Shown piece by piece: positions 22,161-32,639 of a DNA stretch of 32,639 nt. Positions within the stretch are counted from its first letter, which is position 1, and each line of letters starts with the position of its first letter. Under the pieces are notes generated by a model. The model searched no databases, was not told the origin of the DNA, and saw nothing but the letters and a program-made list of their open reading frames with translations. The translations under genes were made by a program, and so were the position numbers. Origin of the DNA: Sorangium cellulosum (GTDB lineage: Bacteria > Myxococcota_A > Polyangia > Polyangiales > Polyangiaceae); the NCBI GenBank assembly GCA_020720045.1, contig DYPH01000069.1, positions 1 through 32,639 of the forward strand. Reading direction: 5' to 3'.

Positions 22161-23059
22161 GGAAGCGCCGCCGTGAAGAGCACCGCACCGACGTAGCTCG
22201 CCGCTTCGAGGGCCGCCACGCCGACGGCCCGCTCGCCGCCGACCGCCTCATCGAGGTAGCCGCCCCGGAGCGTCGGCCGCTTTCCAAGGAGGAGCCCCTG
22301 GACGAAGAGCTGGCGGACGGGGAAGATCGCAAGGGCGGGAGCGAGCGACTTTCCGAAGTCGCTCAATGCCTCTTTCCAGGTCGTAAAATCGCCGTCGACG
22401 GCATCGGCAACGACGATCGAAACGGCGATGGTCAAGCCGGCGTAGCTCACAGCTGCTGCGACGTTGCCGCTCGCGATTTGCGAAGAGTCGTCATAGACGG
22501 TGAGGGCTCGGAAGAGGATGATTGCGCATTGAACGGCGACGAGCCCAAGGACTGCGAAGGGGAGGGAGGTCGCGAGTTCCGCGTAGCTCGTGCCGGAGAT
22601 GCTGCCAGCGACGACGAGCGCCGTACCGACCGCATGGCCCGCTTTCGCGAGGGCAACTGCTTCATTCCCTTTGGAAAGTTGTTCGTTCTGGCCGCTGTGC
22701 GTCCCGAGGAGGACGCGGCTGAAGGTCGCGTCGCCGGCGACCCAAAGGGCAAGCGACGCCAGGGCGGCGACGGTTGCGACGGCGAAGGCAGGCCGCTTTG
22801 CCTCCTCGGCGATCAAACAGGTTTCGCCGACGCGGGCCGCCAATACAAACGCTCCAAAGAGGCGCCCGCCCGCCACGAGGTGGGTGGCCGAAGGGGCCGG
22901 TCCGTTCGCGACCGCCAGCGAATTTACTGGGGGAGGCGTCGCGAGAGACGGGCCCACTTCAACGGAGGCTTCGGCCGGCTTTCCCGCGGTCGCGCGGAGG
23001 AACACCAAATAGCCGACGAGGACGGCAGCGACGAATGCTTGAGGGGCCAAGGCTTCCAC
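22157..23059 (-). CDS. DUF350-type multi-pass membrane protein
   Basis: A 300-residue integral membrane protein with roughly eight hydrophobic segments. It starts with an anchor at about 5-23, then a Pro/Ala-rich linker (24-60). Two or three DUF350-like units follow, each with an NxAxAxxxAG-type pattern: GNEAVALAKAGHAVGTALVV and GNVAAAVSYAGLTIAVSIVV, and possibly the last segment. The start is GTG at 23059, without a clear ribosome-binding site. It leads the operon that continues into the ATP-grasp gene. DUF350 proteins (E. coli YjfL) occur next to such ligases, but their function is not known. Transport or membrane anchoring of the ligase product is possible. Confidence 0.78.
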   Translation of the reverse strand: MEALAPQAFVAAVLVGYLVFLRATAGKPAEASVEVGPSLATPPPVNSLAVANGPAPSATHLVAGGRLFGAFVLAARVGETCLIAEEAKRPAFAVATVAALASLALWVAGDATFSRVLLGTHSGQNEQLSKGNEAVALAKAGHAVGTALVVAGSISGTSYAELATSLPFAVLGLVAVQCAIILFRALTVYDDSSQIASGNVAAAVSYAGLTIAVSIVVADAVDGDFTTWKEALSDFGKSLAPALAIFPVRQLFVQGLLLGKRPTLRGGYLDEAVGGERAVGVAALEAASYVGAVLFTAALP

Positions 23060-28795: not shown

Positions 28796-28915
28796 CCCGG
28801 AGCCGCCGAAGGCGGTGAGGAACCGGCGCGCACGAAGTACCCGGAGCCGCCGAGGGCGGTGAGGAACCGGCGCGCACGAAGTACCCGGAGCCGCCGAAGG
28901 CGGTGAGAAACCGGC
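28796..28915 (+). repeat. 44-bp tandem repeat (2.7 copies) after the DUF4139 gene
   Basis: Units start at 28796, 28840 and 28884, exactly 44 bp apart. They are nearly identical, with an A/G change in unit 2 and a G/A change in unit 3. Each has CCGCC-GAA-GGCGG (a 5-bp hairpin; GAG in unit 2), then AACCGG and a GCGCGC stretch. The third unit is cut short where it merges into the terminator stem. Probably a local duplication of the gene-end hairpin. Confidence 0.9.
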
Positions 28916-29010: not shown

Positions 29011-29076
29011 TCGGCCTCGGGTAGATCACGAGGTTCCGTTCCGGTCCGACTTTGAGTAGTGGGCGCCGCACTAGCC

Positions 29077-31206
29077 ATGGCAGCCCGCATCCCCATCGAA
29101 CGCATCCGCAACATCGGTATCTCGGCCCACATCGACTCGGGCAAGACCACGCTCACCGAGCGCATCCTCTTCTACACCGGCCGAATCCACGAGATCCACG
29201 AAGTCCGTGGCAAGGACGGCGTCGGCGCGAAGATGGACTCGATGGACCTCGAGCGCGAGAAGGGCATCACGATCCAGTCGGCGGCGACCTACTGCGTGTG
29301 GCCGGGCTCCCAGCGCCAGCTCGAAGACTTCAACGTCAACATCATCGACACGCCAGGCCACGTCGACTTCACCATCGAAGTCGAGCGCGCCCTCCGCGTC
29401 CTCGACGGCGCGATCCTCGTTCTCGACTCCGGCAAGGGCGTCCAGAGCCAGTCGATCACCGTCGACCGCCAGATGAAGCGCTACAGCGTTCCGCGCATCG
29501 CGTTCGTCAACAAGATGGACAACCCGGGCGCCAACTACGAGCGCGTCTCGGACATGCTCCGCGAGAAGCTCGGCCACCACTCGGTCACCATCCAGGTGGC
29601 GATGGGCGCCGAAGACAAGTTCGCCGGCCTCATCGACGCGGTCACCCAGCGCGCCTACTTCTTCGACGGCGATGACGGCGAAAAGGTTCGCGAAGCCGAT
29701 GTCCCCGCCGAGTACGTCGAAGAGACGAAGGCGGCCCACCAGCGCATCATCGAGAAGGTCGCCGACGTCGACGACACCCTCGGCGAGAAGTTCCTCAACG
29801 AGGAAGAGATCACCGTTGCCGATCTCCGCGCCGCCATCCGCCGCGCGACGCTCGCCCTCAAGATGACGCCGGTCATGTGCGGCTCCGCGTACAAGAACAA
29901 GGGCGTTCAGCTCCTCCTTGACGCGGTCACCTACTACCTCCCGAACCCGACGGAAGTCCGGAACGAAGGTCACGACCAGTCGAACAACGAAGAGAAGATC
30001 GTCATCGACTCCGACCCGACGAAGCCCTTCGTCGCGCTCGCCTTCAAGCTCCAGCAGGACAAGTACGGTCAGCTGACCTACTTCCGCGTCTACCAGGGCA
30101 CGATCACCGCTGGCGACACGATCTACAACGTCTCCAACGAGAACCGGAAGGTCCGCGTCCCGCGTATGTTCCGTATGCACTCGGAAGACCGCGAAGAAAT
30201 CCAGTCGGCGGAAGCGGGCGACATCGTTGCCTTCTACGGCGTCGAGGCGAGCTCCGGCGAAACCTTCACCGACGGCAAGGTGCAAATCACCATGACGTCG
30301 ATGCACGTGCCGGCGGCCGTTATCTCGCTCGCCGTCGCCCCGAAGGATCGCGCCTCGGAAGCGAACTTCTCGAAGGCGCTCAACCGCTTCACGAAGGAAG
30401 ACCCGACCTTCCGCGTGCACCAGGATGAAGAGTCCCAGCAGACGATCATCTCCGGGATGGGCGAGCTCCACCTCGACATCTACATGGAGCGCATGAAGCG
30501 CGAGTACGGCTGCGAAGTCGTCGCCGGCAAGCCGCAAGTCGCCTACCGCGAGACGATCACGCAGCGCAGCGAGATCAACTACACGCACAAGAAGCAGACC
30601 GGCGGTTCCGGCCAGTTCGCGAAGATCCTCGGCTTCATGGAGCCGCTTCCGGAAGACGCCGTCGAAGCCTACGAGTTCGTGGACGAAATCGTCGGTGGTT
30701 CGATCCCCCGCGAGTACATCCCGGCCTGCGACAAGGGCTTCAAGGACGGCATCAAGAAGGGGCGCCTCATCGGCTTCCCGGTCGTCGGCATCCGCTGCAC
30801 GATCAACGACGGCGCGTTCCACGCGGTCGACTCCTCGGAAATGGCGTTCAAGACCGCCGCTCTCCAGGGCTTCCGTGAGGCCTACGTCGGCGCGAAGCCG
30901 ATCATCCTCGAGCCGATCATGAAGGTCGAAATCGAAGCGCCGGTCGAGTTCCAGGGTTCCGTCGTCGGCCAGGTCAACCAGCGCCGCGGCATCATCCAGG
31001 ACACGATCTCCGCCGACGTCGTCACCGTCACCGCGCTCGTCCCGCTGAACGCCATGTTCGGCTACTCGACCGACCTCCGTTCGGCGACCCAGGGCAAGGG
31101 GCAGTTCACGATGGAATTCGCGAAGTACGCCCCCGTCCCGCGCCAGGAGCAGGACGAAATGGTCAAGAAGTACAAGGAGCAACTCGCTCTCGAAGCGAAG
31201 AAGTGA
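29077..31206 (+). CDS. fusA: Elongation factor G (spdEFG1-like)
   Basis: A 709-residue translational GTPase that moves tRNAs and mRNA after peptide transfer. The G domain has the P-loop AHIDSGKTT (17-25), switch I with GITIQSAAT (63-71), DTPGHVD (91-97) and NKMD (145-148). Domains II-V follow, with [19 protein letters not shown] and the C-terminal domains complete. [12 protein letters not shown] and [28 protein letters not shown] differ from the E. coli type (HIDAGKTTTTER, GAATMDWMEQE). They match the type known in mitochondria, spirochaetes, planctomycetes and deltaproteobacteria. A second EF-G gene may exist elsewhere. ATG 29077 is chosen over GTG 29059; neither has a clear ribosome-binding site. 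The neighbours are not rpsL, rpsG or tuf. Confidence 0.96.
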
Positions 31207-31286: not shown

Positions 31287-31913
31287 CTACTTACAGAAGC
31301 CCGCCGTGCACGTGTACGTGCCGTCCGGCGCGCACGTTGTGAAGGAACGCCCTTCCACAGACGTGTACGTGTACTCCTGGGTGCCGGCCCCACACGCGAC
31401 CTTCGTGCCGTCGTCCACACAGACGCCGCGCCCGCCGCTCGTCGGCACGCAGTAGCCCCGCCCGCCAAACTCGGGCGTCGGGCAGTCGGCAGAGCGGCTG
31501 CACGTGGCGTAGGCGACCGGGGCCGCATAGCAGGCGTCGACCTTCTCGCACTTCGCCTCGACGACCTTCACGGTCAGGCTCCGTGTGGTGGAGGCGCACG
31601 AGTTGTCGGAGGAATCGGCGCGCAACGTAAACGTGTAGTCGCCGATCGTCGTGGCGGTCCCCGCGAAGGTGCCGCCGGAAATTTCAATTCCTGGGGGGAG
31701 TTCCCCGCTCACGACCGTATAGACGCTCGAGCCCGCCTGCCCACCGACGGCGATGGCCCGGCCGAATTCATGGCCTTGCGCGACCTCGTAGGTCCGCGCG
31801 GCCGACTCGCTGAACGTGTTCGGCTCAAAGCCGCAGGGATAGAGCTCGTCGTCGCTGCAGGCGACGAGGGACGCGACGAGGGGGAACAAGAACCATGCGC
31901 GGGAAGCTTGCAT
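31287..31913 (-). CDS. Lipoprotein with Ig-like domain and Cys-rich tail
   Basis: A 208-residue protein. The signal peptide has a good lipobox (LVAC, Cys19). Residues about 40-110 resemble a putative-Ig (He_PIG-like) domain: VVSGELPPGIEISGGTFAGT and IGDYTFTLRADS, as in cadherin-like surface proteins. The C-terminal half has about a dozen cysteines in short Gly/Ser/Thr-rich segments and is probably disulfide-bonded. The ATG at 31913 is chosen over the longer frame opening at 32054 because it gives the clean signal; AAAGG lies 7 nt upstream on the minus strand. Surface-exposed binding or a structural role is likely, with no enzymatic motif. Confidence 0.8.
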   Translation of the reverse strand: MQASRAWFLFPLVASLVACSDDELYPCGFEPNTFSESAARTYEVAQGHEFGRAIAVGGQAGSSVYTVVSGELPPGIEISGGTFAGTATTIGDYTFTLRADSSDNSCASTTRSLTVKVVEAKCEKVDACYAAPVAYATCSRSADCPTPEFGGRGYCVPTSGGRGVCVDDGTKVACGAGTQEYTYTSVEGRSFTTCAPDGTYTCTAGFCK

Positions 31914-31958
31914 AACGTGCCTTTGGAAGGAGTTCGGTGAGGACAGGCCCCTGTTGAA

Positions 31959-31989
31959 GTGGGCCGCCGTCTCGAACGGACGGGCCCAC
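31959..31989. other. Hairpin upstream of the lipoprotein gene
   Basis: GTGGGCC (31959-31965) pairs with GGCCCAC (31983-31989), with inner CCGT/ACGG (31967-31970 with 31976-31979) around CTCGA. It lies 46 nt upstream of the minus-strand lipoprotein start, in its likely leader. I see no clear promoter here and no gene on + in 31914-32219. Confidence 0.4.
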
Positions 31990-32219: not shown

Positions 32220-32264
32220 AACCGTGGACGACGGTTCACGCACCCCTCGTTCCCGTTTACGGGA
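32220..32264. other. Two small hairpins beside the 21-bp array
   Basis: AACCGT/ACGGTT (32220-32225 with 32231-32236) and TCCCGT/ACGGGA (32251-32256 with 32259-32264) lie directly before the tandem array. The second has the same layout as the array unit: an arm, a 2-3 nt centre, and the complementary arm. The array may have grown from such a dyad. Confidence 0.35.
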
Positions 32265-32390
32265 GCCGTCTCACGGCACAAAAGAGCCGTCTCACGGCAC
32301 AAAAGAGCCGTCTCACGGCACAAAAGAGCCGTCTCACGGCACAAAAGAGCTGTCTCACGGCACAAAAGAGCCGTCTCACGGCACAAAAGA
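32265..32390. repeat. Six-copy 21-bp tandem repeat
   Basis: Six direct copies start at 32265, 32286, 32307, 32328, 32349 and 32370. All are identical except one C-to-T in copy 5. Each unit has the dyad GCCGTCTCACGGC (5-bp arms, 3-nt centre) followed by ACAAAAGA. Because 21 is a multiple of three, frames stay open through it on both strands; these are not credible genes. There are no unique spacers, so it is not CRISPR. The spacing equals two helical turns, so all dyads and A-tracts face the same side. Confidence 0.95.
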
Positions 32391-32402
32391 GCCGCGGACG
32401 GC

Positions 32403-32612
32403 CTACTCGGCCCGTGTGACGCGCCCATCGCGGTCGACGACCAACGACTCCCGCGCGCCAAACGAGGCCGGCGGGATCCGGAGCCGCCATCGGTGGAGCC
32501 CCGGTTTCGTCGGTGTGGAGAACACGGGCGCTTTCGTGTCCTCGTCGAGGACCTTGAGTTCGACGATGCGCGGAGCCGCAGGCGTCTCTAGGTAGCTGCT
32601 CGGAATTGCAAT
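32403..32612 (-). pseudogene. Open frame resembling a protein C-terminus, no start
   Basis: The minus-strand frame from 32612 to TAG 32403 encodes about 69 residues with protein-like composition, for example RIVELKVLDEDTKAPVFSTP and LRIPPASFGARESLVVDRDG. An in-frame TAA (32613-32615) closes it upstream, and there is no ATG; a GTG about 40 codons before the end is the only ordinary alternative start. The stop sits 12 bp from the tandem array. It could be a truncated gene, a frameshifted gene running in from beyond 32639, or a chance frame in GC-rich DNA. I do not recognise the family. Confidence 0.35.
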
Positions 32613-32639
32613 TTACACGGGATGTGATCAAAGCAATGT

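Follow-up and report, generated by a model that had tools for sequence, protein, structure and literature searches.

A 21-bp tandem dyad array near fusA in Sorangium cellulosum is probably a lineage-restricted dispersed minisatellite

In bacterial minisatellites, or VNTRs, units longer than about 10 bp follow one another head to tail, and closely related genomes carry different numbers of them at one locus. The array studied here lies near the end of a 32,639-nucleotide contig of Sorangium cellulosum (the whole of this stretch is referred to as the window) and consists of such short intergenic units, near-identical in the window, with a copy number that differs between relatives at one locus, as seen in one orthologous pair only; unlike typical minisatellites, its units are partly dyadic, and the genome has related units at several loci. 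Intrinsic (Rho-independent) terminators combine a GC-rich hairpin with a T tract, and both are present in the array, where, on the minus strand, a hairpin and a T-rich tail follow a stop codon. The array differs from these terminators in its 5-bp stems, its interrupted T tract and its tandem arrangement, and its placement and sense with respect to genes are not consistent among loci. Direct repeats of about 21 bp also resemble iterons in size, and the iteron arrays of plasmid origins likewise consist of direct repeats spanning about two helical turns; in contrast to them, the present array has a chromosomal core-gene context, no initiator gene among the frames scanned and no plasmid match. REP/BIME sequences, as portrayed in excerpts of PMC4666352, are palindromic units of 20-40 bp, single or clustered. 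Going by the same excerpts, the array shares with them the small, extragenic, inverted repeats that are dispersed and clustered, but it occurs at very few loci rather than in many dispersed copies per genome, keeps a strict 21-bp period and has lost its symmetry in most units of the sister arrays, and the weak Y1 transposase matches of the two genomes lie on contigs other than its own.

The first-pass annotation of the window had reported six near-identical dyad copies at a spacing of 21 bp, and this description held: five of the six units are identical, and unit 5 (32349-32369) reads GCTGT for GCCGT, a C-to-T change that leaves one mismatch in its dyad. Tandem Repeats Finder delimits the array to 32263-32394 (period 21, 6.3 copies, 98% matches) with a score of 257, compared with a best score of 61 among 300 dinucleotide shuffles of the window's last 1000 bases, confirming that the array is real and far above chance expectation. 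The dyad is GCCGT-CTC-ACGGC, with a 3-base centre, and is followed by ACAAAAGA; since the units abut, the same arms form a second dyad across the spacer, ACGGC-ACAAAAGA-GCCGT. The period corresponds to about two helical turns. A degenerate seventh unit directly adjoins the stop codon of a minus-strand gene, here called gene X, and the array is therefore slightly longer than first noted (Table 1). Sampling 20 stretches of the genome of the window, about 0.36 Mb in all, revealed no further tandem array built from the window unit. Periods of 21 or other multiples of 3 recur among the tandem repeats of this sample, mostly with two to four copies, a 30-bp array and a degenerate 18-bp array with about six copies being the exceptions; the window array is unusual, but its period alone is not. 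A coding reading of the arrays (21 bp equal seven codons, and several frames are open throughout) was set aside, as the arrays appear to lie after stop codons or before likely starts. A search against Rfam returned nothing at the array and two matches below the gathering score near the end of fusA, and three sister loci gave no match at gathering score.

Table 1. Positions and settings of the array, its neighbouring genes and its sister loci (G000, genome of the window; G001, congener)
Feature	Place	Position	Strand	Remarks
fusA (elongation factor G)	window	29059..31206	+	DNA 99.2% identical to the congener's fusA
Putative lipoprotein gene, Ig-like domain (He_PIG)	window	31287..31913	-	start codon inferred
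Six tandem 21-bp units, GCCGTCTCACGGCACAAAAGA	window	32265..32390	+	starts 32265, 32286, 32307, 32328, 32349, 32370
Degenerate seventh unit, GCCG-CGGACGGC	window	about 32391-32402	+	one base short; direct sequence reading
Gene X, 3' part	window	32403..32593	-	stop codon 32403-32405; from alignment to G001:C219
Array of eight units	G000 C311			between divergent open frames, starts inferred
Array, three units visible beside a run of N	G000 C212			array begins 13 bases beyond a minus-strand frame's stop codon
Array of six units	G001 C265			orthologous to C311
Array of five units, cut by contig end	G001 C490			starts one base after an SMI1/KNR4-like gene's stop codon; fusA lies about 610 bases upstream
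One lone exact unit	G001 C219			upstream of gene X, between divergent open frames, starts inferred

A Pfam scan of frames in the window identified rpoB, rpoC and fusA, together with a DUF4139 protein and a He_PIG protein. Between the DUF4139 frame and fusA, Tandem Repeats Finder also reports a 44-bp tandem repeat (28796-28915; 2.7 copies, 96%). The minus-strand putative lipoprotein gene lies downstream of fusA and is separated by about 350 intergenic bases from the array, behind which comes the 3' part of gene X, also encoded on the minus strand; the contig ends about 240 bases past the array. Gene X has no Pfam family; it matches its counterpart in the congener in 153 of 174 alignment columns, the 174 including 15 gap columns, and the start of the congener's gene resembles a lipoprotein signal as judged by eye. 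The similarity ends at 32593, beside a repeat common to many contig ends: the last 52-55 bases of the window (32586-32639) match at least 38 other places in the same genome, of which at least 28 lie at contig ends and point outwards (16 contig starts and 12 ends). This sequence is probably the border of a multi-copy element that breaks the assembly, and the element apparently interrupts gene X. At the border point the congener's gene X reads CTCTAGGTGG, and CTCTAGGT may represent the target preference of the element. The 3' end of gene X in the congener carries no array; it is followed by a 25-bp repeat and then by the contig end. Both species carry units of this 25-bp type (TGTAATCAGAGGACCCGG and variants), alone or as runs of two or three and frequently close to contig ends (G001:C219:6234-6301, G001:C265:5658-5675, the contig starts C46, C183, C198 and C210 of G000, and others). 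They were considered as a second array family, but since several copies lie at contig ends they were interpreted as the probable terminus of a further multi-copy insertion element.

The genome of the window (G000) was compared with those of its relatives, its single sampled congener being referred to as G001. Allowing up to three mismatches, a pattern of two adjacent units was found in 2 of 97 relatives, namely the genome of the window and the only congener in the set, while the other 95 have no two-unit arrays. The exact two-unit pattern matched only the congener's record (two contigs of a Myxococcales MAG) in a genome collection and had no match in viral contigs, and a blastn search of plasmids and phages likewise returned no match to the array. 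With a single unit and up to three mismatches, seven matches were obtained in 6 further genomes of 59, all of them with three mismatches, compared with two for the reversed-pattern control; though above the control, these matches are probably mostly chance. Within the sets searched, the array family is limited to this genus. Among the literature matches listed, no paper on such arrays in myxobacteria was apparent from titles and abstract starts. The comparison covers two species with one genome each, both as draft assemblies in which C490 is cut by a contig end and C212 by N, and in which frame starts are inferred.

Three loci are present in G000 and three in G001, which has one additional site with two mismatches. 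All five arrays keep a period of exactly 21, and variation in the scored arms is limited to GCCGT/GCTGT and ACGGC/ACAGC. In three arrays the distance between the stop codon and the array is 1 to 13 bases, which is perhaps non-random; the window and C212 arrays follow the stop codon in the T-rich sense, and the C490 array follows it in the A-rich sense. The SMI1/KNR4-like gene beside C490 was recognised by a Pfam match below the cut-off, and the scanned frames beside C311 and C212 have no Pfam family. A 21-bp array thus lies downstream of fusA in the congener as well: the window array and C490, the latter ending within its array, are on the same side of fusA and in the same orientation with different genes in between, and might go back to one ancestral site.

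To what extent the units keep their symmetry was scored for 28 units from all arrays. Watson-Crick pairing of the dyad with the 3-base centre is complete in 5 of 6 window units versus 4 of 22 sister units, the latter being made up of 1 of 8 in C311, 0 of 3 in C212, 2 of 6 in C265 and 1 of 5 in C490. The alternative dyad across the spacer is formed at 4 of 5 window junctions and at 15 of 24 others. Similarly, the A4 spacer is present at all five scored window junctions, and the 24 junctions outside the window carry ACAAAAGA (13), CCCAAAGA (10) or ACAAGAGA (1). Neither dyad showed significant covariation of its arms, with Fisher p values of 0.08 for the 3-base centre, in the direction against pairing, and 0.19 for the 8-base centre, in the direction for pairing, the units being non-independent in both cases. 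Perfect symmetry and regular A4 tracts are accordingly a feature of the window copy, as expected from a recent amplification of one unit type. That the array has expanded recently had already been proposed in the first-pass annotation, and the contrast between the almost uniform window units and most of the sister arrays, which are mosaics of several unit types, bears this out.

The same annotation had taken the array for an iteron- or operator-like structure and had suggested a genome search for single dyads as a check, which did not favour this assignment. When up to three mismatches were allowed in the 19-base core, G000 had two sites outside the arrays, each with three mismatches, versus three for the reversed-pattern control; G001 had five versus one, namely the exact lone unit on C219, one site with two mismatches and another three sites with three. 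Allowing one mismatch in the unit pattern yielded three non-array matches per genome, the control giving five in G000 and none in G001. Stand-alone sites thus give no sign of a regulon; in the congener, where they exceed the control, they are too few for one.

A direct view of copy number is provided by C311 and C265, which are orthologous by their alignable flanks and have eight and six units, respectively, in this one pair. The two loci are collinear except for a 42-bp gap and four substitutions. Within the array 4 of 146 columns differ (2.7%), compared with 20 of 198 in the left flank and 11 of 61 in the right (31 of 259 combined; Fisher p 0.001, with the caveats that columns are non-independent, that the left flank is maybe partly coding and that gap placement favours the array). 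The closer likeness of the arrays may reflect constraint or homogenisation; homogenisation, array-favouring gap placement and constraint would each give such a pattern. Copy number differs in this pair, and free variation in it had been named in the first-pass annotation as a sign of a neutral minisatellite, but the array is less diverged than its flanks, which argues against free drift; strong upkeep, on the other hand, is consistent with the exact period in five arrays and with the likeness of the orthologous pair, but homogenisation would give the same.

On the whole, we consider a dispersed minisatellite, restricted to this lineage and without a dedicated function, the probable explanation. 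In agreement with it, sister arrays share the 21-bp period but differ in unit types, the orthologous pair differs in copy number, most sister units have lost the dyad, the family is confined to the genus in the sets searched, and gene context and sense differ among loci, whereas the exact period in five arrays with few arm variants, the lower divergence of the orthologous arrays relative to their flanks and the position of three arrays close to stop codons speak against it. Alternatively, the array might be a terminator or mRNA 3'-end array that ends or protects the gene X transcript and insulates the downstream lipoprotein gene. As minus-strand RNA, each unit would form the hairpin GCCGU-GAG-ACGGC followed by UCUUUUGU, directly past the gene X stop codon. 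A loose consensus detects five minus-strand terminator-like sites within the array or at its border (six in the scanned region versus a shuffle mean of 1.5), the predicted minus-strand fold has -67.4 kcal/mol (z -4.5), and the C212 array is placed past a stop codon in the same sense. However, the plus strand, which lacks the U tract, has the stronger z score (-6.0), both strands folding better than shuffles as an inverted-repeat array would; moreover, the stems have just 5 bp, the T tracts are interrupted, the C490 array is oppositely oriented to the gene whose stop codon precedes it, C311 is flanked by divergent frames, and the changes between units do not preserve the hairpin. We therefore regard a terminator as rather unlikely to be the main explanation. 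A weak terminator activity for gene X is perhaps a side effect of the window copy, and it is rated as no more central than that because the sense relative to genes is inconsistent among loci.

A protein-binding array appears more doubtful still. Here, the units would be bound cooperatively by a sequence-specific or nucleoid protein along one helical face while the A-tracts bend the DNA, and the exact period, the dyads (perfect in five of six units) and A4 spacers of the window and the closer likeness of the orthologous arrays than of their flanks are all compatible with such a platform. The sister arrays, however, keep neither the dyad nor the A4 spacer regularly, own-genome stand-alone sites do not exceed the control, those of the congener are too few for a regulon, and no common type of target gene was seen; most of the tests of the operator-like proposal, including copy number and core-gene context, thus went against it. 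Very unlikely is a relic of a mobile element, with units representing transposase-moved binding sites or hairpins like those of REP/BIME. Dispersed positions, a genus rich in other dispersed repeats and weak Y1 transposase matches in both genomes are in line with it, but the loci are very few, no shared terminal structure besides the unit was seen, and the Y1_Tnp matches are marginal (one of six over the cut-off) and located on contigs other than those with arrays. An identity as origin iterons or as a partition site has, in our view, hardly any chance: the direct repeats have an iteron-like size, but rpoB, rpoC and fusA share the window, several loci occur in one genome, and there is no plasmid or phage match. 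No replication initiator was found among the part of the window frames that was scanned, and this reading was set aside on the gene context and the missing plasmid and phage matches.

Other dispersed repeats are abundant in the genus. A nested-hairpin repeat of 70-75 bp (starting GTGGGCCCGCCGTCTC), often in tandem pairs, has at least 52 matches in G000 and at least 51 in G001, some of them overlapping; a copy lies in the window at 22892-22957 on the minus strand, a remnant at about 31941-31987 and a further occurrence at L034 273-413, for which Rfam gave no match. It looks like a REP-like or small mobile element. Open frames of 318-361 aa with the marginal Y1 transposase matches, located at G000:C83:2633, G000:C219:24764 and four G001 sites, are possible partners of the abundant 75-bp repeat.

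According to the minisatellite explanation, a 21-bp unit with imperfect inverted-repeat character is scattered over a few intergenic sites in one myxobacterial genus, and for its dynamics we infer replication slippage or unequal recombination, through which arrays would expand, contract and homogenise locally; because of such local changes, the window copy would be near-uniform while most sister arrays are mosaics. No dedicated binding protein or regulon would belong to the unit. It might also be speculated that genus-specific, 21-bp-phased arrays at gene ends or between divergent genes act as a tunable expression element (by termination, insulation or bending) which is set by unit number and type and held by selection beyond the level of the flanks, a possibility to which we give little credence, about as little as to the binding platform. 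Should a terminator or tuning role prove correct, the arrays would be an example of repeat-number tuning of expression in uncultured myxobacteria. The minisatellite explanation, in turn, carries a caution: a perfect, phased dyad array in one genome resembles a binding platform, and a single congener sufficed to show that its symmetry, its A-tract and its copy number are not all conserved.
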